From a virus, in the IMG/VR virus record IMGVR_UViG_3300008448_000740, positions 1 through 22,196 of that record: 22,196 bases of DNA. The stretch is one strand, 5' to 3'. The notes under the pieces are model-generated. The model was not told where the DNA came from. It searched no databases and was given only the letters and a program-made list of their open reading frames with translations. The position numbers were made by a program, and so were the translations under genes. Shown here one piece after another: positions 2,036-21,509 of the stretch (its first letter is position 1; each line of letters begins with the position of its first letter).

Positions 2036-4123
2036 ATGGCTGACGCCGACAAGAGCAAGTCCGACATGCTGGCGACCATGCGCGCCCGCATGAGCACGGC
2101 GATCGCCGCTTTCGGCAGCAGCCGTGAGGCGGAGCTTGACGACCTGCGCTTCATGGCCGGCTCGGCGGACAACAACTACCAGTGGCCTTCCGACGTGCTC
2201 TCCAGCCGCGCGTCGACGCAGGGCATGACGATCAACGCCCGGCCGTGCCTGACGATCAACAAGCTGCCGCAGCACGTCCGGCAGGTCACGAACGACCAGC
2301 GGCAGAACCGGCCGACCGGCAAGGTCATCCCGGCCGACGACCACGCCGACATCGAGGTCGCCGAGGTCTTCAACGGCGTGATCCGGCACATCGAGTATGT
2401 GTCGGACGCCGACGTCGCCTACGACACCGCCTGCGACAATCAGGTGACGTATGGCGAGGGATATGTCCGTCTTTTGACGGAATACTGCGACGACGACACC
2501 TTCGATCAGGACATCCGCATCGGGCGCATCCGCAACTCGTTCAGCGTCTACATGGACCCGATGATCCAGGATCCGACCGGCGCGGACGCGAAGTGGTGTT
2601 TCATTACGCAGGACCTGCCCAAAGCCGAGTATGAGCGCCTGTATCCGAACGCCGCGGTGCGGTCGATCCAGGAGCAGGGTGTCGGCGACCCGAGCCTGAG
2701 CCAGTGGCTGAACGAGAATACCGTCCGCATCGCGGAGTATTTCTACGTCGACTACAAGCCGGGCACGCTCAACCTCTACCCCGACGGCTTCACCGCCCAC
2801 GAGGGCACGCGCGAGGACAAGACCGCGCGGCTGATGTTCGGCGCGCCCCTGCGCAGCCGGCGCGTCGAGCGCCGCACGATCAAGTGGGTCAAGACCAACG
2901 GCTTCGAGGTGTTGGAGGAGCAGGACTGGCCCGGCAAGTGGATACCGGTGATCCGCGTGATCGGCAACGAGTTCGAGATCGACGGCGAGCTGCACATTTC
3001 CGGCCTCATCCGCAACGCCAAGGACGCGCAGCGGATGTATAACTACTGGACCAGCCAGGAAGCCGAAATGCTGGCGCTGGCCCCCAAGGCGCCGTTTATC
3101 GGCTACGGCGGCCAGTTCGAGGGCTACGAGGGCCAATGGAAGACGGCTAACGTCAACAACTGGCCGTATCTGGAGGTCAACGCCGACGCGACCGACGGCC
3201 TCGGCAACCCGTTGCCGCTGCCGCAGCGCGCCCCGCCGCCGCTGGCGCAGACCGGGCTCATTCAGGCCAAGATGGGCGCGTCGGACGACATCAAGTCGAC
3301 CACGGGGCAATACGACAGCAGCCTTGGCGCCACGTCCAACGAGCGGTCGGGCAAGGCCATCCTCGCGCGCGAGAAGCAGGGCGACACCGGCACCTATCAC
3401 TACATCGACAACCTCGCCCGCGCGGTGCGCCACGTCGCGCGCCAGCTGATCGACCTGATCCCCAAGATTTACGACACCCCGCGCATCGCGCGCATCATCG
3501 GGCTGGACGGCGACGTGTCCATGGCCCGCATCGACCCCTCGCAGGCCGAGCCCGTCCGCAAGATCGTGGACGAGGAGGGCAACGTCATCGAGAAAATCTA
3601 CAACCCGAGCGTCGGGAAGTATGACGTCGTGGCCGTCACCGGCCCCGGCTACGCGACCAAGCGACAAGAAGCCGCGGAGAGCATGTCGCAGGTGCTCCAG
3701 GGCAACCCGGCGCTGTGGCAGGTCGCCGGCGACCTGTTCGTCAAGAACATGGACTGGCCCGGCGCGCAGGAGATGGCCGACCGGCTGCGCAAGTCGATCG
3801 ACCCGAAACTGCTCGCCGACGACGACAAGTCGCCCGAACTGCAAGCTGCCGAGAAGCAGATCGAGGAAATGGGTGCCATGCTCCAGCAGATGCAGGGCGC
3901 ACTCAAGAACGTCGAGCAGTCGATCGAGGCGCAGGAGATGCGCACCAAGCAGTTCGAGGCGCAGGTCAAGGCCTACGACGCCGAGACCAAGCGCATGTCG
4001 GTCCTGCAATCCGGCATGACGCCGGAGCAAATACAGGATACGATAGACGGCACCATTGACGCGGCGATGCAAACGGGCGATCTCGCCCCGCAGAGCCTGA
4101 CCCCCCAGGAGACGTTCCCATGA
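2036..4123 (+). CDS. Portal protein, P22 gp1-like
   Basis: A 695-residue portal (P22 gp1 has 725), the dodecameric ring at the unique capsid vertex through which DNA is packaged and ejected. The N-terminal part has the P22-type portal pattern: RFMAGSADNNYQWP near residue 40, then RPCLTINKLPQHVRQVTNDQRQNRP and VSDADVAYDTACDNQVTYGEGYVRL. Residues about 592-660 form a Gln/Glu/Lys-rich heptad region predicted to be a long helix, the place of the P22 barrel. The ATG is 3 bases after the terminase stop with only a weak ribosome-binding site, so coupling is likely. The stop overlaps the next gene's start as ATGA. A 704-codon open frame runs antisense across the gene; it looks like a codon-bias shadow. 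Confidence 0.93.
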   Translation: MADADKSKSDMLATMRARMSTAIAAFGSSREAELDDLRFMAGSADNNYQWPSDVLSSRASTQGMTINARPCLTINKLPQHVRQVTNDQRQNRPTGKVIPADDHADIEVAEVFNGVIRHIEYVSDADVAYDTACDNQVTYGEGYVRLLTEYCDDDTFDQDIRIGRIRNSFSVYMDPMIQDPTGADAKWCFITQDLPKAEYERLYPNAAVRSIQEQGVGDPSLSQWLNENTVRIAEYFYVDYKPGTLNLYPDGFTAHEGTREDKTARLMFGAPLRSRRVERRTIKWVKTNGFEVLEEQDWPGKWIPVIRVIGNEFEIDGELHISGLIRNAKDAQRMYNYWTSQEAEMLALAPKAPFIGYGGQFEGYEGQWKTANVNNWPYLEVNADATDGLGNPLPLPQRAPPPLAQTGLIQAKMGASDDIKSTTGQYDSSLGATSNERSGKAILAREKQGDTGTYHYIDNLARAVRHVARQLIDLIPKIYDTPRIARIIGLDGDVSMARIDPSQAEPVRKIVDEEGNVIEKIYNPSVGKYDVVAVTGPGYATKRQEAAESMSQVLQGNPALWQVAGDLFVKNMDWPGAQEMADRLRKSIDPKLLADDDKSPELQAAEKQIEEMGAMLQQMQGALKNVEQSIEAQEMRTKQFEAQVKAYDAETKRMSVLQSGMTPEQIQDTIDGTIDAAMQTGDLAPQSLTPQETFP

Positions 4124-4407
4124 GCCTCAAGGGCATCACCAGCTGCCTCGGCTACCAGCAGATCACGGACCTGTCCGCGTCCACGGCGCTGACGATCCCG
4201 ACGCTGAACGGTCAGAAGCCGACGTCGGCGACGATCGTCTGCACCGCGCAGGCCGTGCGCTACCGCGACGACGGCACGGCCCCGACTGCGACGATTGGCA
4301 TGCCGCTGCCGGTCAACACCGTCTTCCACTACGACGGCAACCTCGGCAACATCCGGTTCATCGAGCAGACCGCGGGCGCCGTGCTCAACGTCAGCTACTA
4401 CGCCTAG
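4120..4407 (+). CDS. Small beta-rich protein after the portal, function unknown
   Basis: A 95-residue protein that I do not recognise by name. It has no charged coiled coil, signal peptide or membrane segment. It is built of short Thr/Ala/Val-rich strands with a Tyr-rich end (LNVSYYA), like a small beta-sandwich. VRYRDDGTAPTATIGMPL in the middle resembles small structural or decoration proteins of tailed phages, which is inference. AGGAGAC lies 6 bases before the ATG, and the start overlaps the portal stop as ATGA, so it is translated with the portal. The location between portal and tailspike suggests a virion component, perhaps decorating the head or the tail vertex. One Cys pair position (C10, C47) is visible, with no evidence of metal binding. 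Confidence 0.75.
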   Translation: MSLKGITSCLGYQQITDLSASTALTIPTLNGQKPTSATIVCTAQAVRYRDDGTAPTATIGMPLPVNTVFHYDGNLGNIRFIEQTAGAVLNVSYYA

Positions 4408-4420
4408 GGAGTAGCCAGTC

Positions 4421-6556
4421 ATGGCCGAGGGCAGGACCGTCCCCGAACTGTTGGAGCTGTCGCTCCCAGTGCAGGCGACCGACGAGACGGTGGTCTACCG
4501 CTCGGGCGGCAACCTAAAGCGCGCGGATATGTCCGACATTCGGACGTATATGGCTGCGACCAGCCAGCCGCTCGACGCCGACCTGACCGCCATCGCCGCG
4601 TTGACTTCCGCAGCCAACAAACTGCCCTACGCCACCGGAGCGCAGACGTGGGCGCTGACGGACCTGACGGCCTACGCCCGCACGCTTCTGGATGACGCCG
4701 ACGCGGCGACGGCCCGAACCACGCTTGCGGCGGTTGGCTCTGCTGAACTTGCTGCTTCGGGTGGTTCGGCTTTGGCCGGGTTCCTTCAGGCCGGAACGAG
4801 CGCAACCGCTCGCACGGTTCAAAGCAAACTGCGGGACACACTTAGCGTTAAGGATTTCGGCGCGACGGGCGACGGATCAACTGACGACGCGACCGCCATT
4901 CAGGCTGCTATCACCGCTGCCGCAGTCACGGGCCAGACGGTGTTCTTCCCCGCCGTTGCGTCCTACTACCGCATCACGGCGGCGCTTACGGTGCCAGCCA
5001 ACGTCAAGCTGGTTGGCGAGGGCTACTCGTCGCGCATCGTGCAGGTGACTTCCGGCACGAACGCCCTGACGCTCAACGGCGACAACATCCATCTGGTCAA
5101 CATCGCTATCGTCGGGGGCAATACGGCCTCTGCCAAAGGCATTTCGATCACGGGCGGCAACAACATCACGGTCGAAGGGTGCCAGGTCAAAGACTGGCTC
5201 AACGGCATCTACGCCGCGGGGACGTGTCACGACCTGAACATTCTCGGCAACCGCCTGTGGGGCGGCGCCGGCGACGGCGGGACCGCCGCGGACATCACGA
5301 TCTACGGAACCGACAGCGTTGCCGGGACGATCCGGCGTGTGCGGATCACGAGCAACCAGTGCCTGTCCAACAACGACGTCGGCATCTCCGCAGCCACGAA
5401 CAACGGCGACCGCGAAGTCATCATCACCAACAACATTGTGGTTCCCTGCGATGCGGATGGGGTCACGGAGCGCCCCGCGAACAACACCGTAAAGCTGCGC
5501 TACGGCATCACCGTAGGCTATGTTGGCACGCAGGAAGTCCGCGGGGTCATTGCCAACAACGTCGTGCGGCGCGCGGGCTACACGGGCATCTACTTGCAGG
5601 GTATTGCCGCCCCCGTCGGAACGTGCGCGATTGTCGGCAACGTCCTTTCGGAGTGCGGTTACAGCACCCTCTACCCCTCGGACGCGAGCCTGCGCGCCGG
5701 GATCTACCTCGCCAACGGCGGCGCAGACACCATAACGGGCAACGTCATCGTCGCTTGCTCCACGGCGGGGCTCAAGATTTCGCCTACGGCGGGTCCGACG
5801 GCAAACGCGCCTCGGGCCAGCATCACAGGCAACGTGATCGCGCGGACGGCAGGCATCGGCGTCGTGTTCTCCAACTCGCCCTACGGGTATCTGTTTGCCT
5901 CAAACCGCGTATACGGCAGCACAGACATCGCCGTCTGGTTTGTCCCAACGACGGCCGCCGACAGCGGAGACTGCGTTTTTGAGGGCAACCACATCCAGAC
6001 GACGGGTGTCGCAGGCGCTTTCCAGATTATCGCGGCGGGTGTAGGTGCCCCGGTCATCGTGTCGAACAACACTGTTGTCGGCGACACGCCGAGCACTTCT
6101 TCGTCTTTCAATTCTGGCGTATACGCTACGGGTTCGCCGGACGATGTGGTCATCGTCGGAAACAAAATCCGCGGCTACAACCAGGGTGTGATCATGGCCA
6201 CCGCGCTGGCGACGCGCGCGCTTAACGGCCCCTGCAACAACCACTTCGTCAACTGCGTGTTCGGCATCAACGGCAGCGGAGCCGGGACCTTGCTTTGCCA
6301 AGGCAACACTTTCGACGCCGTGACCGAGCCGACCTACAACATCGCCTGCAACGGCACTTTGCTCGTCGGCATATACCAAACGACGCCCAACATTCTGACC
6401 GGAAACTTCGACGGCTCCCCCCCGGCCTACGGGACGTGGGCACGCGGGGACCAGTGCATGAACCCCCTTCCGAGCGCCGGCGGCACCCCCGGCTGGGTTT
6501 GCGTAACCGGCGGTGCGCCGGGGACGTGGAAAGCTATGGCGAACATTGCGGCATGA
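4421..6556 (+). CDS. Tailspike protein with right-handed beta-helix (pectate-lyase-3-like)
   Basis: A 711-residue receptor-binding tailspike, close to P22 gp9 in size (667). Residues 1-45 form a short anchor (VPELLELSLPVQATDE..VVYRSGG). Residues about 55-105 carry the tail-fibre linker seen in many phages (LPYATGAQTWALTDLTAYAR, then LLDDADAATARTTL). The beta-helix begins at residue 145 with DFGATGDGSTDDATAIQAAI, the hallmark entry of pectate-lyase-3 spikes. It continues through many Asn-rich rungs of the type ITNN, VIVGNKI and VSNNTVVG to about 650. The C-terminal GW.CVTGGAPGTWK motif is common at spike ends. Such spikes usually cleave or bind surface polysaccharide as trimers; catalytic residues cannot be assigned by eye. 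There is no P22-type head-binding domain. The stop overlaps the first lysis gene as ATGA. Confidence 0.88.
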   Translation: MAEGRTVPELLELSLPVQATDETVVYRSGGNLKRADMSDIRTYMAATSQPLDADLTAIAALTSAANKLPYATGAQTWALTDLTAYARTLLDDADAATARTTLAAVGSAELAASGGSALAGFLQAGTSATARTVQSKLRDTLSVKDFGATGDGSTDDATAIQAAITAAAVTGQTVFFPAVASYYRITAALTVPANVKLVGEGYSSRIVQVTSGTNALTLNGDNIHLVNIAIVGGNTASAKGISITGGNNITVEGCQVKDWLNGIYAAGTCHDLNILGNRLWGGAGDGGTAADITIYGTDSVAGTIRRVRITSNQCLSNNDVGISAATNNGDREVIITNNIVVPCDADGVTERPANNTVKLRYGITVGYVGTQEVRGVIANNVVRRAGYTGIYLQGIAAPVGTCAIVGNVLSECGYSTLYPSDASLRAGIYLANGGADTITGNVIVACSTAGLKISPTAGPTANAPRASITGNVIARTAGIGVVFSNSPYGYLFASNRVYGSTDIAVWFVPTTAADSGDCVFEGNHIQTTGVAGAFQIIAAGVGAPVIVSNNTVVGDTPSTSSSFNSGVYATGSPDDVVIVGNKIRGYNQGVIMATALATRALNGPCNNHFVNCVFGINGSGAGTLLCQGNTFDAVTEPTYNIACNGTLLVGIYQTTPNILTGNFDGSPPAYGTWARGDQCMNPLPSAGGTPGWVCVTGGAPGTWKAMANIAA

Positions 6557-6789
6557 CCGGGCGGATCACGAACGCGGAGATCGCGGAGCGGCTTGCCCGT
6601 ATGGAGGGCAAGATCGACAACCTGACGGGCTGGGTCGGCGAAAAGCCGAACGAAGGCCTGCGCGGTGAGGTCACTATGCTCATCGGTATCAAGAACAAGG
6701 GCTGGGGCCTCGTCGTCGGCCTGCTGATCTTTGCCGGCGCAATCGGCGCGTCGGTCAAATCCGCCGTCACGGACTTGCTGTTCAAATGA
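6553..6789 (+). CDS. Small one-TM membrane protein, holin candidate
   Basis: A 78-residue protein with an N-terminal charged amphipathic helix (about 5-25), a short linker and one hydrophobic segment (about 51-68, WGLVVGLLIFAGAIGASV). It ends in a short tail, DLLFK. This layout resembles XhlA-type or class III holin-associated proteins. It starts inside the tailspike stop codon (ATGA) and ends overlapping the next membrane protein (ATGA), with no ribosome-binding site of its own, so translation is probably coupled. Being first in a run of holin-like, endolysin and spanin genes supports a lysis role. It may be the holin, an antiholin or an accessory protein; the sequence alone does not say which. 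Confidence 0.7.
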   Translation: MTGRITNAEIAERLARMEGKIDNLTGWVGEKPNEGLRGEVTMLIGIKNKGWGLVVGLLIFAGAIGASVKSAVTDLLFK

Positions 6790-7040
6790 CCGACCCGCAA
6801 GATCCGTTGCCCGAGGGCTCCTGGACGTTCCGCAGGTGGTTTACCTACTTGACGACGCTCGCGTGCCTCGCAGGTATCGGCTGGGTCATTCACAAGCTGG
6901 CCGAGGGCGAGCATCTGGCCGGCGTGGCCTACGGCCTGCTCGTCCTGTGTGGCGTCCTGTCGACCAACTACCTCGTCGGCCCGTCTGCCGAGCACATCGT
7001 AAAACTGTTGCAGACGGCGTCTATCTTCAAGAAACCGTAA
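6786..7040 (+). CDS. Small two-TM membrane protein, probable holin
   Basis: An 84-residue protein with two hydrophobic segments (about 19-36 and 44-63), a short polar turn (EGEHLAG) between them, and a basic C-terminal tail ending KK. Class II holins have two segments and similar size; they form lesions in the inner membrane that release the endolysin and trigger the spanins. The gene overlaps the preceding membrane gene as ATGA and lies 12 bases before the endolysin gene. The endolysin has no signal peptide, so a hole-forming holin is expected here. I consider this the better holin candidate of the two adjacent membrane proteins; the assignment rests on topology and context. Confidence 0.75.
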   Translation: MTDPQDPLPEGSWTFRRWFTYLTTLACLAGIGWVIHKLAEGEHLAGVAYGLLVLCGVLSTNYLVGPSAEHIVKLLQTASIFKKP

Positions 7041-7052
7041 CAGGGGGCCGTC

Positions 7053-7436
7053 ATGGCTTACAAGCTAGGCATCCGTTCGCGCCTGAACCTCCGCGGCGTG
7101 CATCCTGATCTGGTCAAGGTCGTCGAGCGAGCCATCGAGCTGACCGAAGTCGACTTCACCGTCACCGAAGGCCTGCGCTCCAAGGAGCGCCAGAAGCAGT
7201 TGTTCGCCGCCGGCGCGTCGATGACCCTGAACTCGCGCCATCTGACGGGGCATGCGGTGGACGTGGCGGCGCTGGTCGGCGGCAAGGTTCGTTGGGACTG
7301 GCCGCTCTACGGCCGCATCGCGTCGGCGTTCAAGCAGGCGGCCAAGGAACTGGACATCCCGATCGTGTGGGGCGGCGACTGGACGAAACTGCGCGACGGC
7401 CCGCATTTCGAACTGAACCGGGCGACCTACCCGTGA
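7053..7436 (+). CDS. Endolysin, M15-family peptidase (L-Ala-D-Glu type, VanY-like fold)
   Basis: A 127-residue peptidoglycan peptidase that cuts cross-linking peptides at lysis. The zinc site of the M15 family is complete: SRHLTGHAVD places H63 and D70, and DGPHFEL places H118 with D115 as the likely catalytic acid, in the same DxxH spacing as Listeria phage Ply500. The N-terminal SRLNLRGVHPDL and VTEGLRS are also typical of the family. Only the catalytic domain is present, without a wall-binding domain, as usual for phages of Gram-negative hosts. No signal peptide or membrane anchor is seen, so export depends on a holin. AGGGGG lies about 6 bases before the ATG. The stop overlaps the i-spanin start as GTGA. 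Confidence 0.93.
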   Translation: MAYKLGIRSRLNLRGVHPDLVKVVERAIELTEVDFTVTEGLRSKERQKQLFAAGASMTLNSRHLTGHAVDVAALVGGKVRWDWPLYGRIASAFKQAAKELDIPIVWGGDWTKLRDGPHFELNRATYP

Positions 7437-7852
7437 TCGGCACCGGCCGCCTGATCGGCTACGCGGTGGCCGCTGTTACCATTCTGGCGATTGTGGTCAT
7501 AACCTTTGCCGCGTGGTCGCGCATATGGTCGTGGCTCCCGTGGTCTGCTGAAAGCCGCGCGGAGCGCGCCGAGGCCCGTGCCGAGATCGCTGAAGACACC
7601 GCGCGCTCCGCGGTCGCAAGGGCCGACGGCGAAGCCGAGGTTGGCCGCGCCATCGAGCGCCAAACCATCATCATCCGCGAGGCCGCATCCGCGGCATACC
7701 AATCCGAACTGACCGTGAGGACTGCGCCCGATGCCAACACGCCCCTTGATCCTGACCGCGCTCGCCGTATCCATGACGCTCAACGGAGCCTGTGCTTGGC
7801 TGCCCCGACCGTCTGCACCACGGCCAGCGCCGACCCTGCTGACGGTGGCTGA
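7433..7852 (+). CDS. Inner-membrane spanin, Rz-like
   Basis: A 139-residue protein with an N-terminal membrane anchor (residues about 7-28, LIGYAVAAVTILAIVVITFA), a Trp-rich juxtamembrane stretch, then an Ala/Glu/Arg-rich coiled coil from about 38 to 95. This is the classic i-spanin layout: anchored in the inner membrane, with the coiled coil crossing the periplasm to meet the outer-membrane spanin and fuse the membranes after wall degradation. The GTG start at 7433 overlaps the endolysin stop (GTGA). No ribosome-binding site is obvious, so coupling to the endolysin is likely. The last 122 bases are shared in another frame with the lipoprotein spanin. The Cys/Thr/Ala tail (CLAAPTVCTTASAD) is constrained by that overlap and need not be functional. 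Confidence 0.82.
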   Translation: MIGTGRLIGYAVAAVTILAIVVITFAAWSRIWSWLPWSAESRAERAEARAEIAEDTARSAVARADGEAEVGRAIERQTIIIREAASAAYQSELTVRTAPDANTPLDPDRARRIHDAQRSLCLAAPTVCTTASADPADGG

Positions 7853-8024
7853 CACCGTCCGCCAGCCCTGCCGGATGCCGCTGCTCCCGCAAAGCCCCAC
7901 CCAGGGCGACGTGGATGCGCTGATCATCCAATCCGGGCTTGCCATCATCGAGTGCGACGCCCGGCGCCAGCTCGCCGTCGACATCCTCGACGCCCAACAG
8001 GCAGCTATCAAGGAAGCACCATGA
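7731..8024 (+). CDS. Outer-membrane lipoprotein spanin, Rz1-like, overlapping Rz in another frame
   Basis: A 97-residue protein starting inside the i-spanin gene in a different frame. It has a short basic and hydrophobic signal (RPLILTALAVSMTL) ending at C21 in LNGAC. It is followed by a Pro-rich segment (LPRPSAPRPAP) typical of Rz1, then RQPCRMPLLPQSPTQGDVDA and a helical end with a second Cys (IIECDARRQL). This late part matches the common pattern of Rz1-like o-spanins that extend beyond Rz. The lipobox is imperfect: Asn, not Leu or Val, sits at -3. GTGAGGA lies about 9 bases before the ATG, supporting independent initiation. The stop overlaps the phosphoesterase start as ATGA. It would be lipidated and placed in the outer membrane, partnering the Rz-like protein. 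Confidence 0.82.
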   Translation: MPTRPLILTALAVSMTLNGACAWLPRPSAPRPAPTLLTVADTVRQPCRMPLLPQSPTQGDVDALIIQSGLAIIECDARRQLAVDILDAQQAAIKEAP

Positions 8025-9172
8025 CCCGCGGGACAGAAGCCACGCGCGAGCGGGCCGAGGAAATCATCGCAGTCTTGCACGAGTGCCTAGAGGAAGGCTA
8101 CCCGTGGGAGAACCGCGCGCCCGGCGAGAAGGGCGCGCGCACGGTGGCGTGCGAGCGTCTCAACATGAGCACGTCGGGGTTGCACCAAGCCCTGAAAGCC
8201 GCCAAGCGGCGATACGACATCGAGCCGGACCCGTCGCGCTACGTCCCGCGCAAGGGCGATCCCATCTTCCGCATTGAAGCGTTGCCCGACGACGGTGAGC
8301 CAAGCGCCGAGGACTTGATCGCCGCGCTGGCCGCGCGCCACGCCAAGCGCAAAGCGCACCATGACGCCGCCAAGCTGCGCCAAGTCCGCATCGGCCTCGG
8401 CGGCCCGATAGCGGTCGCGGGGTTCGGCGACCCCCACGTTGACGACAAGGGCTGCGCCTGGGGCGATCTGGAGCGCGACGTCCGCATCTGCCGGGACACG
8501 CCGGGGATGCTGGCCGTTGACGTCGGCGACAACTCGAACAATTGGGTCGGCCGGCTCATGCGGCTCTACGCCGAGCAGGAGGTGACGCCGAAACAGTCGT
8601 TGCAGCTGATCGAGTGGCTGATGTGCGCGCTGCCGTGGTTGCATTGGGAGGACGGCAACCACGACCTGTGGAACACCGAAAAGGGCGACCCGGTCGCCAT
8701 CATGCACCGGATGCACAAACGTCTCGGCTCCATGAACACGGGGGGCACGCGGCTGCAACTGAACCTGCCGGTCGGCGCGTCCGTCTTCATGCACATCCGC
8801 CACGACTTCCCCGGCGGCTCGCAGTTCAACCCGGCACACGCGCTCGTCCGAGAGACGCTGTTCGGTTTCCGCGACCACATCATGATGTGCGGCCACCGTC
8901 ACCACACCGGCTACATCCCGGTCTGGCACAACGACCCGCGGCGGCTGTGCCACGGGTTCCGGCTCGGCACCTACAAGGACATGGACCACTACGCGGCCGA
9001 AAAGGGTTTCCAGGATGGCAATTGGGCGCGCTCGATGGCGGCGGTGATCGACCCGGAATGGGCGCACGATCCCGTTCGCTTCATCAAGGCGTTTTTCTCG
9101 CTGGAAGAAGCCGCCGAGTATCTGACCTGGCGGCGCGGGAAATGGGAGTTGGGCTATTCAGCGTCGCTCTGA
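8021..9172 (+). CDS. Calcineurin-like metallophosphoesterase with N-terminal HTH-like domain
   Basis: A 383-residue protein. Residues about 10-65 are helical and look like a DNA-binding helix-turn-helix (TVACERLNMSTSGLHQALKAAKRRY). The rest has the full metallophosphoesterase signature: GDPHVDD (D137, H139), VGDNSNNW (D170), DGNHD (N213, H214, D215), HIRHDF (H258, H261) and GHRHH (H292, H294). All metal ligands are present, so it should be an active two-metal phosphodiesterase or phosphatase; the substrate is unknown. AAGGAA lies 5 bases before the ATG, which overlaps the o-spanin stop (ATGA). It sits between lysis and head genes rather than with replication genes. Phosphoesterases of this type occur in phages, with roles suggested in nucleic acid or host signal degradation. 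Confidence 0.88.
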   Translation: MTRGTEATRERAEEIIAVLHECLEEGYPWENRAPGEKGARTVACERLNMSTSGLHQALKAAKRRYDIEPDPSRYVPRKGDPIFRIEALPDDGEPSAEDLIAALAARHAKRKAHHDAAKLRQVRIGLGGPIAVAGFGDPHVDDKGCAWGDLERDVRICRDTPGMLAVDVGDNSNNWVGRLMRLYAEQEVTPKQSLQLIEWLMCALPWLHWEDGNHDLWNTEKGDPVAIMHRMHKRLGSMNTGGTRLQLNLPVGASVFMHIRHDFPGGSQFNPAHALVRETLFGFRDHIMMCGHRHHTGYIPVWHNDPRRLCHGFRLGTYKDMDHYAAEKGFQDGNWARSMAAVIDPEWAHDPVRFIKAFFSLEEAAEYLTWRRGKWELGYSASL

Positions 9173-9177
9173 CCCTG

Positions 9178-9206
9178 TTGCAAAAAAATCGCTGCCACTG
9201 TAGGCT
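9178..9206 (+). promoter_or_regulatory. Possible promoter in the largest late-region gap, before the scaffold gene
   Basis: The gap at 9173-9255 (83 bases) is the widest between two plus-strand genes. It contains TTGCAA at 9178-9183, a 17-base spacer with a run of A, and TAGGCT at 9201-9206. This matches sigma-70 consensus at 4/6 and 3/6 positions with ideal spacing. An A-rich stretch is unusual in this GC-rich sequence. A promoter here would raise scaffold and coat expression above the terminase-lysis part. Evidence is by eye only; the hexamers are weak. Confidence 0.3.
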
Positions 9207-9255
9207 TTGCGTCACTCTACCGGCGGAGCGCACCGGGGGTTCCAAGGGACCATAG

Positions 9256-9996
9256 ATGTCAGAAGAAATCCTAGCGGGGGAACAAGCCGCGCCGGAGTTG
9301 GAGGTTACGGCCCCTCCCACCCCTGAGATCCAAACGCCGGAAGACGCACCCAAGACCTTCACCCAGGAGGAACTGGACGCCGCGATCGGCAAGCGTCTCG
9401 CACGAGAGCAGCGAAAGTGGGAACGAGAGCAGCAGCGCCTGCAATCCGCCGCCCCGCCCGCCCCACTCCCTTCGGTTGACCAGTTCGAGAGCACCGAGGC
9501 ATACGCCGAGGCGCTGGCAGAACAAAAGGCAGTTGCCTTGGTCGAACAGCGGGAACGGCAGCGGCAGCAGGAAGCTCTGATCGAGGCCTACTACGACCGT
9601 GAAGAACAGGCGCTGGCCGAGTATGACGACTTCAAGCAGGTCGCATACAACCCCTCCCTGCCCGTCACGGCCGAGATGGCCGAAACCATCCGCGCATCCG
9701 ACCTAGGCCCCCGTGTCCTCTATCACTTGGGGTCCAACCCGTCGGAAGCGGCCCGCATTTCCGCGCTGCCGCCGCTCTTGCAGGCCAAGGAAATCGGCCG
9801 GATCGAAGTCGCTCTGGCGGCGTCGCCCCCGGTCAAACGCACCACCTCTGCCCCCCCGCCTATCTCACCTGTCACCCCGACCAGCAGCGGCACGCCCGCA
9901 TACGACACCACCGACCCCCGCTCGGTTTCCACCATGAGCACGTCGGAATGGATCGCGCAGGAACGGGCTCGGCAGTTGAGGAAGGCGGCCCGCTAA
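9256..9996 (+). CDS. Scaffolding protein, P22 gp8-like (capsid assembly)
   Basis: A 246-residue, highly charged, Gln/Glu/Ala-rich protein directly before the coat gene, where tailed phages keep the scaffold. Residues 1-32 are acidic and Pro-rich. Residues 35-62 (FTQEELDAAIGKRLAREQRKW...) are the helix common at the start of phage scaffold proteins. Residues about 75-130 are a long helix. Residues about 190-222 are a disordered Pro/Ser/Thr linker. A basic helix (WIAQERARQLRKAAR) closes the protein, matching the coat-binding basic C-terminal helix of P22 gp8. It is shorter than P22 scaffold (303). It would fill the procapsid and leave before or during packaging. AAGGGA precedes the ATG by about 7 bases. 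Confidence 0.85.
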   Translation: MSEEILAGEQAAPELEVTAPPTPEIQTPEDAPKTFTQEELDAAIGKRLAREQRKWEREQQRLQSAAPPAPLPSVDQFESTEAYAEALAEQKAVALVEQRERQRQQEALIEAYYDREEQALAEYDDFKQVAYNPSLPVTAEMAETIRASDLGPRVLYHLGSNPSEAARISALPPLLQAKEIGRIEVALAASPPVKRTTSAPPPISPVTPTSSGTPAYDTTDPRSVSTMSTSEWIAQERARQLRKAAR

Positions 9997-10020: not shown

Positions 10021-11229
10021 GTGGCCAACTCGCTTCTGACCATCGACATGATCACCAGGAAGGCCCTGGAGATCTTTGAGAACAACCTCGTCCTGACGCG
10101 GAACATCAACCGCCAATACGACGACAGCTTCGCCAAGGAAGGCGCCAAGATCGGCTCCACCATGCGCATCCGCATGCCCGATCGCGCGCTCGTCACCGAC
10201 GGCGCCGCCCTGCAAGTGCAGGACGAGAACGAGCAGTTCACCACCCTGTCCGTCTCCAACCAGAAGCACATCGGCGTCAACTTCACGACCGCCGAGATGG
10301 CTCTGTCGCTGGACGACTTCGCCGAGCGCATCCTGAAGCCGCGCGTCAGCCAGCTGGCTGCCAGCGTCGACGCCGACGTCGCCAACGTCTACAAGGACGT
10401 ATACAACGTCGTGGGTTCGGCCGGCACCACCCCCGCCACCTCGCTGGTGCTGCTCCAGGGCCAGCAGAAGTTGAACGAGGGTGCCGTCCCGATGGGCTCG
10501 CGCTACGCGACCGTCAACCCGGCCGCCAACGCCGGCCTGGTCGAGGGCCTGAAGGGTCTGTTCAACCCCGCCGACGTCATCAGCCGCCAGTTCAAGAACG
10601 GCATGATGGGCGAAGGCGTGCTGGGCTACGACGAGATCAACATGTCGCAGTCCATCAAGGTGCACACCTACGGCACCCGCGCGGCCACCGGGGCCACCGT
10701 GACCACCACGGTGTCGACGCAGGGCCAGTCGACCCTCGCCATCACCGGCACCGGCTCGCAGGTGATCAACAAAGGCGACACCTTCACCATCGCCAACGTG
10801 TATGCCGTCAACCCGCAGACCCGCGAGAGCACCGGTTCGCTCCAGCAGTTCGTCTGCACCGCCGCCAACACGGCGTCGGGCGGCTCCTACACCTCGGTGG
10901 CCATCAGCCCGCCGCTCTACACGGCGGATCACGCCCTGGCCACGGTCAACTCGTTCCCGCAGTCCGGCGCGGCCATCATCTTCGACGGCGTCGCCTCGAC
11001 CTCGGCTCCGCAGAACCTGATCTACCACAAGGACGCGTTCTCGATGGCCACCGCCGACCTCCTGCTCCCGCAGGGCGTCGACATGGCGTCGCGTCAGACC
11101 CACAACGGCATCTCCATGCGGATCGTGCGCGACTACGACATCAACAACGATCGCATGCCTTGCCGCATCGACGTCCTCTACGGCTACGGTGCGATCCGCC
11201 CCGCCGCCGCCACCCGCCTGCTCGGCTAA
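10021..11229 (+). CDS. Major capsid (coat) protein, P22 gp5-like
   Basis: A 402-residue HK97-fold coat protein of the P22 type (P22 gp5 has 430). The N-terminal ANSLLTIDMITRKALEIFEN and LTRNINRQYDDSF match the start of this family. Residues about 215-335 hold a Thr/Ser/Val-rich stretch with KGDTFTIANVYAVNPQT, corresponding to the inserted I-domain that guides folding and capsid size in P22. The end CRIDVLYGYGAIRPAAATRL aligns with CRIALWYGVNATRPEAI of P22. It starts with GTG; AAGGAA lies 8 bases upstream, and the family's usual start fits exactly there. The scaffold precedes it and a small decoration-like protein follows. It should be the most abundant protein of the virion. Confidence 0.94.
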   Translation: MANSLLTIDMITRKALEIFENNLVLTRNINRQYDDSFAKEGAKIGSTMRIRMPDRALVTDGAALQVQDENEQFTTLSVSNQKHIGVNFTTAEMALSLDDFAERILKPRVSQLAASVDADVANVYKDVYNVVGSAGTTPATSLVLLQGQQKLNEGAVPMGSRYATVNPAANAGLVEGLKGLFNPADVISRQFKNGMMGEGVLGYDEINMSQSIKVHTYGTRAATGATVTTTVSTQGQSTLAITGTGSQVINKGDTFTIANVYAVNPQTRESTGSLQQFVCTAANTASGGSYTSVAISPPLYTADHALATVNSFPQSGAAIIFDGVASTSAPQNLIYHKDAFSMATADLLLPQGVDMASRQTHNGISMRIVRDYDINNDRMPCRIDVLYGYGAIRPAAATRLLG

Positions 11230-13949: not shown

Positions 13950-14637
13950 CATCACCTCGATCCCCGCCGCGCAGGTCCCGTTGCTGGAGCCCGACAGCCG
14001 CGTCATGTCGCGTGAGTGGTATCGGTTCCTGTTCAACCAGTTCGGCCAGACCGGCAGCGGCACGACCGACATCTCCATCAGCGACCTCGCGCTGGCGCCG
14101 TTCAGCGACGCTGAGACGGAAGCGACGCTGGACCTGATGCGCGCCGACATCCAGGGCCTGTCAGTCGCGCCGCCTGTCGTGCTCGCGCCGCGCCGGTCGG
14201 CAGCGTTCGCCAACTCCGCGGCGCAGACCCCGAGCGGCGCCAACACCGCTACGATCGTGACGTTCAACACCACGGTGTTCAGCCAGGGCATCGGCTTGGC
14301 GACGTCGTCCATGATCATGCCCGCCTGCGCGGGAGCCTACCGCGTGTCGTTCACCGCGCAGCTGGACAAGACGAGCGGCGGCGACGCGCTGGTCTATTTC
14401 TGGCTGCGCAAGAACAACGCCACGGATCTGGCCAACACCGCGAAGCGGTGGCGCATCCGGGGCAACGACGCAGAAGTCGTGTTTTGCTCGACCATGACCG
14501 TCGTGCTGGAGCAGACCGATTTTTTGCAAATGATGTGGGCGGCAGACAACGCTAATGTTACCCTAGACGCCACGGCCGCGACCGCCTTTTCGCCCGCGGG
14601 GCCTTCGTCGCTTCTAAGCATCGCACAGGTTGACTGA
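13942..14637 (+). CDS. Tail protein with TNF/C1q-like jelly-roll end, in the tail-needle gene slot
   Basis: A 231-residue virion protein. Residues about 10-36 (AQVPLLEPDSRVMSREWYRFLFNQF) are a short segment found at the start of many phage tail and fibre proteins. Residues about 50-75 are likely helical. Residues about 85-231 form a beta domain with the phage TNF/C1q pattern: AFANSAAQTPSG, TFNTTVFSQGIG, GAYRVSFTAQLDKTS and a terminal SSLLSIAQV. In P22 the needle gene 26 follows gene 10 in this place, and in phage Sf6 the needle ends in a TNF-like knob. This protein lacks the long trimeric coiled coil of a needle, so it may be a reduced needle tip, a plug or a short fibre. It overlaps the gp10-like gene by 8 bases and the next by one (TGATG). 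Confidence 0.78.
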   Translation: MADITSIPAAQVPLLEPDSRVMSREWYRFLFNQFGQTGSGTTDISISDLALAPFSDAETEATLDLMRADIQGLSVAPPVVLAPRRSAAFANSAAQTPSGANTATIVTFNTTVFSQGIGLATSSMIMPACAGAYRVSFTAQLDKTSGGDALVYFWLRKNNATDLANTAKRWRIRGNDAEVVFCSTMTVVLEQTDFLQMMWAADNANVTLDATAATAFSPAGPSSLLSIAQVD

Positions 14638-15440
14638 TGACCCTCTTTCTTTCGCCTCTCGCCGGCGCTGGCCAACAGTTCCTTGACAACTCCGGCGACC
14701 CGCTGACCGGCGGGCTGCTCTACACCTACGCCGCAGGCACGACGACGCCGCAGAACACGTTTACGACCGCGGCGGGCACGACGCCGCACTCCAACCCGAT
14801 CATCATGGACGCCGCCGGGCGGCTGGAGAGCGAGGTCTGGCTGACCGGCGGCGTCGCCTACAAGTTCGTGCTGCGCGACAGCACAGGCGCGCTGATCGGC
14901 ACCTACGACGACCTCTACGGCATCAACGACCTGAGCGCCAACGGCGTTGAGTGGGTCGACGTCCTCAACACGCCGACCACGCTGGCAGGCTACGGCATCA
15001 CCAACGGCCTGAGCACGACCGCCGCCGCCGCGACCTACGCGCCGATCGCTGACGCGGCGCTGACGGGCACGACGACGGTCCAGGACGGCGCGTCGCCCAC
15101 GCCCGCGTCGCACCGGGCGGGCTACGTCGACGTCCCGCAGAACCTGAAGGCCGTCAACTACGCGCTGGTGCTGGCCGACCGCGGCAAGTCCGTGGTCATG
15201 AACGGCACGTCCCTGACGCTGACGATCCCGGCCAACGCCTCGGTGGCGTTCCCGATCGGCGCGGCCATCGTCGTCATCAACGTCAACTCGTCGGCGCTGT
15301 CCATCGCCATCACGTCCGACACCCTGACGCTGGTCAACTCGACGACGACCGGCACGCGCACGGTGGCGCAGAACGGCATGGCCACCTTGGTCAAGGTCGG
15401 CACGACGTCGTGGATTATCGCCGGGCTCGGTGTGACCTGA
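14637..15440 (+). CDS. Tail fibre protein with P22-like head-binding N-terminus
   Basis: A 267-residue fibre. Residues 1-100 (FLDNSGDPLTGGLLYTYAAG, HSNPIIMDAAGRLESEVWL, YKFVLRDSTGALIGTYDDL) are the widespread N-terminal domain related to the P22 tailspike head-binding domain, which docks adhesins to the tail hub. Residues about 108-145 include the fibre repeat NTPTTLAGYGITNGLSTTAA. Residues about 165-267 are a compact beta domain (ALVLADRGKSVVMNGTSLTL, IPANASVAFPIGAAIVVINV). It is short for a complete receptor-binding fibre, so it may be an adaptor that carries the glycine-rich protein encoded next, to which it is joined by TGATG. It gives the phage a second adhesin candidate besides the beta-helix spike. 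Confidence 0.83.
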   Translation: MTLFLSPLAGAGQQFLDNSGDPLTGGLLYTYAAGTTTPQNTFTTAAGTTPHSNPIIMDAAGRLESEVWLTGGVAYKFVLRDSTGALIGTYDDLYGINDLSANGVEWVDVLNTPTTLAGYGITNGLSTTAAAATYAPIADAALTGTTTVQDGASPTPASHRAGYVDVPQNLKAVNYALVLADRGKSVVMNGTSLTLTIPANASVAFPIGAAIVVINVNSSALSIAITSDTLTLVNSTTTGTRTVAQNGMATLVKVGTTSWIIAGLGVT

Positions 15441-19098: not shown

Positions 19099-21509
19099 CC
19101 ATGCAAGACCCGCCGCCCCCGCCGCCGGGTTTCCGCCCCGTCGCACGGGCGAGCAGCGCCCCGCCGCCCCCGCCGCCGGGCTTCCGCCCGGTGTCGCCTT
19201 CACGCGCAACCCCGCCCCCGACGCGGAACCGACAAACGCCTGCCCGCGGTCAGACGCCGCCGCCCGCGCCTGACGAGCCGCCGGGGCCGATCTACGCGCC
19301 GAAGCCAAACATCGCGCAGGTCCCTGAGCGGCGCGTAGCTACGCTGCCTGACGGCACTGAGATCGAACTGGTTGGTCCTGGAGCCTCGCCCGACACCGTG
19401 GCTGGGGGCGTGCTGCCGACTGACTACATCGACCCTGAGACGGGGGGCGTCTATCGCGCGACGCCGCCCGCGGCGGGTGCCCCTGCGCCGATGGACCAAG
19501 GCCAAGAGAACATCTCGGCGGTTCTCGGCATGCTGCCGGGTCCGATGCGCAGGCTCGCAGGCGGTTACGCTGGCGCGGCGCGCGGCATCGCGCGCGTCGC
19601 GGGCGGGGCCTACGGCCTGCTCGGGCAGGCGGCGGACCGGCTCGGGCTGGACGGCATCGGCAACGCCATGATCGACCAGGCCAACGCCTTCCAGGGCGGG
19701 GCGAGCAGGCTCAACGCCCCGTTCCGCAACGCGGCGCTGCGCGAGAACCAGATCGGCCAGCTGGCGGGCGAGGTCGCCGCGACCGTGCCCCTGACCGCGG
19801 GCGTCGGCGCGGGCGTCGGCGCTGTCGGCCGTGGCGTCGCCGCGGTCGCGCCGCGCACCGGGGGCGTCATCTCGCGCATCGGCACGTCGATTGGTGCGGG
19901 CGGCTTCACGCCGTCCGCTGTCGGCCGCCCGGTGGCCGGCGCGGTCGCCCCGTCGCTCGGCGCGCGCGCGGGCAATCTCGCCGTGCGCGGCGTCGGCGGC
20001 GCGACGGCAGGCGGCCTTGGCGCGGCGGTCATCGACGAGGACGACGCAACGATGGGCGCCGCGATTGGCGCGGCCCTGCCGACCATCGCCGCCCGCCCCG
20101 CCAAGTGGGCGCTCAACCGCGTGCTGGACACCTATCAGCGCATGGCCGGCACGCTCGGCGAGGCGCGGGCGGCGACCATCGTCCGCAACGCCCTAGGCAT
20201 CGACCTCGACCGCGCCGTGACCGCCTTGCAGAACGCCGCGCCCGACGTGACCGCGCAGCAGGCGCTGGTCGACGCCGGCGTCGAGCCCGCCGCCTTTATG
20301 GCCGTCGGTCAAGCGGCGCGCGCAACGGATCCCGACGCCTATCTGGCGATCGAGGCGGCGCAGGCCGCCGCCCGGCAGGCCCCCATCGACCGGCTGGCGG
20401 GTGGCACCAACCTGACGGCCGCGCAGCTGGCGGCGCGCGGTGAAAAGGCCGCGCTGCGCGCGGCGACCGTGCCGATGCAGCAGGCGGAGTTGGCCGCCGC
20501 TGACGCCTCGAACGCGCTCGACGTCGCGCCTGTCGTCGGTCAGCTGATGCAGATGGCGGACGCCCCTGGCGTCGGCACGACCAACGCCCGCGTGCTGGCC
20601 GAGGTCGCCGGTGCGCTGGACGCGATGGCCGCGCGGCGCGGCGGCGTGCCGAGCGCCGAGGACATCTACGCCTTCCGCAAGGACGATCTGGACGACATCA
20701 TTACGCGCGCCCTGAGCGTCGGCCGCGGCGGCGAAGTGACCAGTCAGGCCGCGCGGCGCAGCGAGATGGTGCGCGCGACGCAGGACATGCTGGACAGCGC
20801 CATCGAGCAGGCAGGCGGCGCGGGCTGGCGGAACTATCTGGCCAACTACGCCTCGGGTATGCGCGGCATCGAGCGCCAGCAGATGATGGGCGTGGCGGGC
20901 CGCCAGCTGCGTCAGAGCCCGAACGAGTTTGCGAACCTCGTCGGCGGCGAGAACCCGTCGGCCGTCGAGGGTGTATTCGGCCCCGGCCGGATCGACCTCA
21001 ACGCCATGATGAACCCGACCGGCGTCGGGCCGTCGGGCATGGACGCCCTGACGCGCGCCGCGCGAGAGGTGCGCCGCGACGAGCGTGTCGGCGTCTTGGC
21101 CCGCGAAGGATCGGCGCGCGCGCGGGAACTGATGGGGCCGCAGCGCGACCCGCTCCGCCGGGCCAAGAACATCGCGGCGTGGGGCCGCCCGGTCAGCGCG
21201 GCGGCCATGGACTTCGGCGCGGCGCTGATGGACGCGAACCTGCCGGCGCAGACCAAGCGCGCGCTGGCGCAGGCCTACCAGTCCGGCGCCAACATGGAGC
21301 AGCTGCTCCGCATGGTGCCGCTGGCTGACCGCGCGCAGGTCGCCCGCAACCTGATGAACCCGCGGTTCTGGCTGCACCTGCAAACGGGCGTGGCCAACAC
21401 GATGGCGTCACCCGACCCACAGGGCAACGCCATGGCTCTTGGCGTGACGTCGACCTACACGACGCCGGAAGAACTCGCCAACTCAGTCCCGGTCGACTTT
21501 CCCGAGTAG
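19095..21509 (+). CDS. Large DNA ejection protein, probable P22 gp16 counterpart, with polyproline repeats
   Basis: An 804-residue internal virion protein (P22 gp16 has 609). Two direct repeats of PPPPPPGFRPV open it (residues 6-16 and 23-33), followed by a Pro-rich disordered region to about 75. A short beta unit (VATLPDGTEIELVGPGASPD) follows. Residues about 220-335 are Gly/Ala/Val-rich amphipathic or hydrophobic helix (VPLTAGVGAGVGAVGRGVAA), suitable for membrane insertion. The rest is a long helical, Ala/Arg-rich region, ending ELANSVPVDFPE. No lysozyme or transglycosylase motif is seen. The start ATG (ATGA overlap with the preceding gene) was chosen over an upstream GTG at 19080 for its coupling. 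It is the last plus-strand gene. Assignment is by order, size and composition. Confidence 0.75.
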   Translation: MTMQDPPPPPPGFRPVARASSAPPPPPPGFRPVSPSRATPPPTRNRQTPARGQTPPPAPDEPPGPIYAPKPNIAQVPERRVATLPDGTEIELVGPGASPDTVAGGVLPTDYIDPETGGVYRATPPAAGAPAPMDQGQENISAVLGMLPGPMRRLAGGYAGAARGIARVAGGAYGLLGQAADRLGLDGIGNAMIDQANAFQGGASRLNAPFRNAALRENQIGQLAGEVAATVPLTAGVGAGVGAVGRGVAAVAPRTGGVISRIGTSIGAGGFTPSAVGRPVAGAVAPSLGARAGNLAVRGVGGATAGGLGAAVIDEDDATMGAAIGAALPTIAARPAKWALNRVLDTYQRMAGTLGEARAATIVRNALGIDLDRAVTALQNAAPDVTAQQALVDAGVEPAAFMAVGQAARATDPDAYLAIEAAQAAARQAPIDRLAGGTNLTAAQLAARGEKAALRAATVPMQQAELAAADASNALDVAPVVGQLMQMADAPGVGTTNARVLAEVAGALDAMAARRGGVPSAEDIYAFRKDDLDDIITRALSVGRGGEVTSQAARRSEMVRATQDMLDSAIEQAGGAGWRNYLANYASGMRGIERQQMMGVAGRQLRQSPNEFANLVGGENPSAVEGVFGPGRIDLNAMMNPTGVGPSGMDALTRAAREVRRDERVGVLAREGSARARELMGPQRDPLRRAKNIAAWGRPVSAAAMDFGAALMDANLPAQTKRALAQAYQSGANMEQLLRMVPLADRAQVARNLMNPRFWLHLQTGVANTMASPDPQGNAMALGVTSTYTTPEELANSVPVDFPE
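19110..19193 (+). repeat. Two 33-base direct repeats encoding PPPPPPGFRPV
   Basis: Copies at 19110-19142 and 19161-19193, 51 bases apart start to start, differ at only three third-codon positions (GGT/GGC, CCC/CCG, GTC/GTG). They encode identical 11-residue units near the N-terminus of the large ejection protein. Each has six consecutive Pro codons, which normally stall ribosomes without EF-P. The synonymous differences with conserved protein suggest selection on the peptide, although two copies are little evidence. Confidence 0.85.

Follow-up and report, generated by a model that had tools for sequence, protein, structure and literature searches.

A portal-scaffold interval as a likely trading site for spike and lysis genes in a clade of phages with P22-type heads

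Introduction

In phage P22 the portal gene is followed directly by the scaffold and coat genes, the tailspike gene comes last, and the lysis genes lie before the terminase genes. We analyzed a 22,196-base virus record (IMG/VR record IMGVR_UViG_3300008448_000740; "the window" hereafter denotes this whole stretch) in which a block of genes for a predicted tail spike, two holin-like proteins, an endolysin, two spanin-like proteins and a predicted helix-turn-helix (HTH) metallophosphoesterase (MPE) stands between the portal and scaffold genes. Our comparisons suggest that this interval is a cargo site of the phage's clade, and that pieces of the cargo, not the whole block, are traded among close kin and with podophages that have other heads. 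We give this reading a probability of roughly 0.86.

Several described phages approach this arrangement. Two environmental phages, DSL-LC05 (OR003940) and Podoviridae sp. ctNMl277 (MW202483), have portal and coat proteins 68.6-71.4% identical to those of the window. As in the window, about 5 kb runs from portal to scaffold; this stretch encodes a protein annotated as a tailspike in DSL-LC05 and an unnamed 845-amino-acid protein in ctNMl277. Unlike the window, both have an endolysin-type gene behind the ejection genes and a 120-amino-acid gene behind the portal gene, and no MPE was found in either. Pseudomonas phage PAE2 and Rhodoferax phage P26218 have the window's portal and coat families and its head-gene order, but are compact, with neither adhesin nor lysis genes between portal and scaffold. 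Lastly, a set of Mx8-like contigs (L100, L103, L105, L111, L118, L121, L123 and L127; L numbers are our labels for loci), whose nearest named phages by head protein are Bradyrhizobium phage ppBjS10J-1 and Myxococcus phage Mx8, has the same block order where the contig shows it, but a different portal and head protein, and the block closes the late genes.

Phage genomes are mosaics in which accessory genes, including those known as morons, are swapped between conserved structural genes. The window interval is a case of such mosaicism. It resembles morons in its swapped accessory genes, but no promoter-like site was found within positions 3900-9400 (consensus scan only), and the block genes are therefore not morons in the strict sense.

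The Block and Its Flanks

By homology of its coat protein, its portal and a gp10-type head closure protein (phrog_578, 7e-137), the window phage is assigned a P22-type head. The portal, scaffold and coat genes are not contiguous as in P22, 5.1 kb separating portal from scaffold, and we file the window under P22-type head, not under P22 gene order. The window had no DNA match among named phages. The flanking head genes and the block are laid out as follows.

2036..4123, plus strand: portal gene (phrog_156, 4e-130), the left conserved flank
4120..4407, plus strand: gene for a 95-amino-acid protein with no PHROG or Pfam match; relatives lie within the same portal-scaffold interval
4421..6556, plus strand: predicted beta-helix tail spike (Beta_helix PF13229, 8e-16; PF12708, 5e-10; tail spike PHROGs)
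6553..6789, plus strand: holin-like small protein 1, one membrane span by hydropathy
6786..7040, plus strand: holin-like small protein 2, one membrane span by hydropathy
7053..7436, plus strand: M15 endolysin (PF13539, 2e-11; phrog_465, 3e-65)
7433..7852, plus strand: i-spanin-like protein with a GTG start and an N-terminal membrane span, 72% identical to L095
7731..8024, plus strand: o-spanin-like protein, nested in the i-spanin gene in another frame, with a signal-like start
8021..9172, plus strand: predicted HTH-metallophosphoesterase (phrog_7339, 5e-31; metal motifs; modelled fold)
9172..9255, plus strand: conserved pre-scaffold boundary, kept in close kin with and without the MPE
9256..9996, plus strand: scaffold gene (phrog_8865, 1e-32), the right conserved flank
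10021..11229, plus strand: P22-type coat gene (PF11651, 3e-38)

Every gene that an earlier, sequence-only reading of this DNA had placed between portal and scaffold (spike, two holin-like proteins, endolysin, both spanins and phosphoesterase) is present; its list lacked the 95-amino-acid gene at 4120-4407. The tight coupling that it described, by 4-base overlaps except for two small gaps, was also recovered: five junctions overlap by 4 bases (portal/95-amino-acid gene, spike/first holin, first/second holin, endolysin/i-spanin and o-spanin/MPE), the in-block gaps measure 13 and 12 bases, the spanin genes overlap by 122 bases, and 83 bases separate the MPE gene from the scaffold gene. The final large late open reading frame (ORF) of the window stops at 21509, where ORFs of the opposite strand start, so that a lysis set cannot fit there inside the window. 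The adhesin and lysis functions of the block genes are, judging by homology, probably ordinary ones.

Replacement and Reassortment in the Close Clade

The close clade consists of L002-L004, L175-L178, L087-L091 and L320-L324, plus the window. Where the flanking genes are present, their identity to the window is 85-90% for TerL, 81-93% for the portal, 78-83% for the scaffold and 89-95% for the coat. Of these 18 loci, 12 (the window among them) extend over the part between the flanks and six do not; all 12 have an endolysin gene, which was counted when it lay in the interval, or upstream of the scaffold gene where a contig begins inside the block. The endolysins are of four kinds: an M15 protein of 127 amino acids, found among the 12 loci in the window only; an M15 protein of 141 amino acids, 41-44% identical to the window's (L002, L004, L175, L177, L178 and L322); a GH24 protein (L003 and L176); and a CHAP-like protein whose CHAP match falls under its cut-off (L089, L090 and L321).

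The edges of replacement are sharp. On the left, DNA identity with the window breaks off at 4104-4108, the end of the portal gene (blastn; L003, L177 and L090). On the right, it resumes at 9172-9174 in five kin that have no MPE (blastn; L003, L004, L175, L176 and L177), and at 9212-9214 in L178 and L002; for L087-L091, the five loci with an MPE, the point is 8274-8283, which lies inside that gene, immediately downstream of the HTH-coding part. The exact pattern of the pre-scaffold stretch of about 85 bases occurred in 11 of 397 loci, all of them close kin or the window itself.

Within the block, spike and lysis genes reassort. L090 and L177 have spikes that are 77% identical over their full length, yet their holins, endolysin and spanins differ and only L090 carries the MPE. 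L321 and L090 agree at 97-100% in the first holin, the endolysin and the start of the i-spanin; their spikes differ, and the second holin has no match in L321. In L004 the holins, the endolysin and the spanins each belong to a different type. Kin spikes otherwise retain about their first 45 residues. This reassortment rejects, within the close clade, the idea that the adhesin and lysis genes are exchanged as one unit, which the sequence-only reading had raised. The pattern that this reading named as refuting mobility, namely the same order with congruent histories in close relatives, is not seen either, as far as identity comparisons tell.

Segments Shared with Phages of Other Head Types

The spikes of L003 and of the Mx8-like contig L118 are 91% identical across 642 residues, and at the DNA level the two contigs have in common one 2,116-nucleotide segment, 88% identical, that extends from the spike body through the first holin. 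An internal protein of L100 is common to L118 (90%) and seven other contigs (87-100%), and the record of L100 carries, in locus L251, a portal of phrog_12082 and a head protein of phrog_9953 (51-57% to Mx8 and ppBjS10J-1). A second set of segments involves L090, whose spanin genes are 87.8% identical in nucleotides to L101 and whose holin genes are 82% identical to L120. The records of L101, L115, L116 and L120 match neither a P22 coat nor an Mx8-like portal or head protein (for L120, in all but the last 476 bases); a single Mx8-like lineage for all contigs that share lysis genes is thereby ruled out, these four being of other types. None of the 12 records of contigs sharing block pieces yielded a P22 coat match, five of them being fragments of less than 20 kb. 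The mobility of block genes that the sequence-only reading had proposed is thus supported: they are replaced while flanks remain about 80-90% identical, and segments are shared with other-head podophages that carry them at another genome position.

As a further sign of trade, positions 3140-3586 and 4276-4803 of L406 (the L115 record, of another head type) hold genes related to the two that open the L003 block, with identities of 75% over 82% and 58% over 52%, respectively.

A reading in which the whole spike-lysis-phosphoesterase block moves between phages as one cassette draws on the gene order of these distant contigs: L100, L105, L111, L118 and L123, which are Mx8-like, and the other-head L101 record all run from spike through holins, endolysin and spanins to an HTH-MPE and then to opposite-strand genes, and L003 and L118 have spike body and first holin in common in one piece. 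We consider it unlikely, because the close clade reassorts spike and lysis genes, because the window MPE is close to that of kin with other lysis genes and belongs to a different family from the Mx8-like MPE, and because no pair across head types has the full block in common among the loci compared.

Far less probable still is an old fixed arrangement, in which the block descended to all kin and its genes diverged fast. An endolysin is present at the place in all close kin that cover it, and the arrangement is to that extent steady in this branch; however, four kinds of endolysin, GH24 and M15 being different families, between flanks that are about 80-90% identical, and segments 82-88% identical in nucleotides to phages of other heads, both speak against it.

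The Interval across the Wider Clade

Portal and coat matches lie 1.1-1.7 kb apart in 19 of the 22 named relatives compared, and 4.5-6.0 kb apart in the other three (DSL-LC05, MW202483 and MW202691), all environmental samples. The 110 distinct complete intervals of relatives (window excluded) measure 726-8156 bp, with a median of 3787; 28 are shorter than 1.3 kb and 74 are at least 2.5 kb long. Long intervals contain large ORFs of many different sequences, spike- or fibre-like by eye. The sequence-only reading had presented the window's gene order as an oddity relative to P22. Because many members of the wider clade carry an insert at this place, the comparison with P22 makes the order look odder than it is.

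The feature peculiar to the close clade is the presence of lysis genes in the interval; inserts as such are common. Three tests were applied for interval endolysins (a local M15 model, a local GH24 model and a CHAP-like query). They found an endolysin in four of the 110 intervals (L003, L090, L177 and L322), the portals of which are 86-93% identical to the window's, and in none of the remaining 106, with portals at most 74% identical. Elsewhere in the wider clade the endolysin of DSL-LC05 is placed behind the ejection genes, an M15 gene follows the gp7 homologue by 5-8 kb in L019, L022 (look-alikes), L075 and L181, and another lies about 11 kb behind the scaffold gene in L245. The record of L074 has a GH24 match at the opposite contig end, which fits placement behind the ejection genes only if the contig is circularly permuted. 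Of 43 relatives whose intervals are complete, 39 have a 120-amino-acid gene after the portal gene; the window is without it.

Two further observations concern interval proteins. L067:1702-6588 and other intervals contain very diverse large ORFs of up to 1,629 amino acids, a rich source for the study of spike anchors. In the window itself, the first third of the product of 14637-15440, located after gp10, resembles parts of portal-scaffold interval proteins of many relatives; this product may be a second anchor or a spike stub.

The least probable alternative is a chimeric metagenome assembly that joined unrelated pieces. It is suggested by the metagenomic origin of the window and of almost all kin contigs, and by the absence of the long insert from every cultured-host named record compared. 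Against it, separate contigs show the junctions again (three at 4104-4108, five at 9172-9174), and across the left junction the reading frames share 4 bases.

A Probable Clade Cargo Site

Under the reading that we favor, the portal-scaffold interval would be a cargo site that, in many members of the clade, holds large, variable, spike-like proteins. The branch of the window would have taken in holins, endolysin and spanins there, the lysis genes moving into the interval, whereas other members, where their lysis genes could be placed, keep them behind the ejection genes; some members would also have gained the HTH-MPE beside the lysis genes. Through recombination, close kin would exchange parts of the site with one another and with other-head podophages: the spike body, lysis genes singly or in small sets, and the two halves of the MPE. 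Such recombination may occur at short shared stretches, namely the portal end, the spike start and the pre-scaffold stretch, and host surface and cell wall may select the swaps.

Several points weigh against this reading. The evidence consists of identity comparisons, not of trees, and most loci are metagenome contigs, some of them near duplicates (L089/L090 and L003/L176). Viral contigs, when scanned by pattern, yielded no relative of the full-length window spike. The window's lysis genes are nearest to a contig, L095, that carries a tape-measure protein and therefore belongs to a phage with a long tail: the endolysin and spanin genes are 76.5% identical in nucleotides over 765 nucleotides, and the contig stops inside the spanins. 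The direction of the lysis-gene move depends on where endolysins are located in other members; the 110 intervals were screened for just three kinds of endolysin, with two of the models built locally from few or related seeds. The adhesin nature of most large interval proteins was judged by eye. Finally, of the 22 named relatives compared, those with short intervals include the isolates, and the three with long inserts are environmental records that lack a cultured host.

If the reading holds, this phage group has here a site, with edges mapped to within a few bases, at which genes for host entry and host exit are traded with phages of other heads. The loci also provide a comparison set, with the same head and a different spike or lysis set, with which to ask whether endolysin and spike have to suit the host jointly. 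Among the literature matches listed, no title names a site for spike and lysis genes between portal and scaffold, or an MPE as part of a lysis cassette, which does not imply that either is unpublished; the passages of PMC10611076 consulted mention neither.

The HTH-Metallophosphoesterase

The last gene of the block encodes a protein with an N-terminal HTH (about residues 1-85) and a catalytic part behind it. Metallophosphoesterases are recognized by the metal motifs GDxH, GD, GNH and GHxH. In an alignment of 28 MPE proteins, G135, D136 and H138, G168 and D169, G211, N212 and H213, G290 and H293 are invariant; H291, the first histidine of GHxH, is present in the window MPE and is not invariant among the 28. 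PF00149 (Metallophos) matched 14 of the 28 aligned relatives and HTH families matched few, the window protein itself having no Metallophos match at E 0.01. A structural model with a predicted local distance difference test (pLDDT) score of 77.5 has the metallophosphoesterase fold, its best solved matches being PolD, Mre11 and LpxH (E 3e-6 to 1.2e-5, template modelling score by query 0.34-0.42); by sequence, the MPE profile had no match among solved structures. Motifs, Metallophos and HTH matches in the family and the modelled fold together assign the window protein as an HTH-metallophosphoesterase. In bacterial and archaeal genomes, 44 pattern matches were obtained and none was confirmed.

The window MPE is 79-82% identical to that of kin, among them L089 and L090, which carry other lysis genes. 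It belongs to phrog_7339 and the Mx8-like MPE to phrog_221, different families with about 20% identity. Within 8024-9169, the HTH half (residues 1-85) and the catalytic half differ in history as well as in conservation and DNA edges. L105 and L102, for their part, have HTH halves that are alike and catalytic halves that are far more different.

We also asked where MPE genes lie relative to endolysin genes. In L045, of the P22-type clade, the MPE gene stands behind the ejection genes near a CHAP match, and in Caulobacter phage DMCA it directly precedes an M15 endolysin gene. We assembled 50 MPE records, 42 for loci drawn from at least 66 and eight from other searches (L123 and L100 are also in the 66). 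Contigs of less than about 12 kb were left out, as were five longer look-alikes (L258, L260, L265, L266 and L280), each of which has an M15 or GH24 endolysin near the MPE. An endolysin match to one of six Pfam families, the fifth and sixth being sought only in the 18 records without a match to the first four, was present in 35 of the 50 records, the nearest lying within 2 kb in 33 of these. In three of the 15 records without a match (L311, L270 and L315), a neighbor matches endolysin PHROGs. For the first four families, 30 of 32 were within 2 kb, versus 6.8 expected by random placement; after removal of nine records with L105-like lysis sets, 23 of 25 were, versus 5.5 expected. The records are related, some being near twins (G060/G074), though the estimate assumes independence, and the odds are therefore only indicative.

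These neighborhoods allow the tentative suggestion that the MPE is itself a lysis gene: a companion of endolysins of whatever type in many unrelated phages, its halves swapped, acting at or just before lysis. It could, for instance, be a nuclease acting on host DNA, by analogy with Mre11, or act on an envelope precursor, by analogy with LpxH. We regard a role in lysis as possible and rather doubtful. G053 and G071 have no endolysin near; the MPE gene adjoins terminase in MW202711 and, by eye, in L302; the MPE of HTVC033P, which has no evident HTH, sits in a replication region; and the late genes may gather cargo of any kind at their end. Were such a role real, the lysis cassette would gain a member, one seen beside endolysins of six Pfam families.

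An unusual member of the family is found in L094 (669-2774, plus strand), where the conserved GNHD motif of the MPE gene is interrupted by a large insert, intein-like by eye; one viral model that the MPE matches also bears a Hint/intein label. This gene adjoins an ORF that by eye is an SNF2-type helicase; its clade is unproven, the head genes lying outside the stretch.

Other Genes and Signals of the Block

The spike appears to consist of a short N-terminal stretch shared with kin, a putative tail anchor, followed by a right-handed beta-helix, the latter supported by PF13229 and PF12708. The N-terminus is common to kin spikes, as judged from 54% identity over 5% of the length in L321 and by eye in others. 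The two small proteins behind it are candidate holins by membrane spans and position; neither had a PHROG or Pfam family match above cut-off. The second is distantly related to others, among them the second holin of L090, and its tblastn relatives (28-43% identical, with one partial match at 62%) mostly lie just upstream of M15 endolysins.

The endolysin belongs to a known family of peptidoglycan hydrolases (PF13539, phrog_465). The predicted spanins resemble gene pairs located just behind the endolysins of other contigs (32-48%; L095, 72-83%). For the o-spanin-like protein, which has an atypical lipobox (NGAC), relatives at the same position in other loci are 35-48% identical, and L095 is 83% identical over 28% of the length.

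Scans for other signals found no Rfam family in the window, five terminator-like sites within 3900-9400 versus 4.4 expected (consensus scan), and no match in a defence library for the four proteins searched. The pre-scaffold boundary was also considered as a repeated element and rejected as such, each half occurring once in the window with up to 3 mismatches allowed.

The 95-amino-acid protein belongs to a 26-member cluster (the window counted twice, and one member a fragment), and a 69% identical relative lies directly behind the portal gene of L323. The family shifts its place: it is the first or second gene after the portal gene in the window, L061, L074 and L323, and elsewhere it mostly stands shortly before the scaffold gene. 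Lastly, positions 4153-4518 of a honeybee-associated microvirus record (MH992157.1) encode an M15 peptidase that is 70% identical to the window endolysin.

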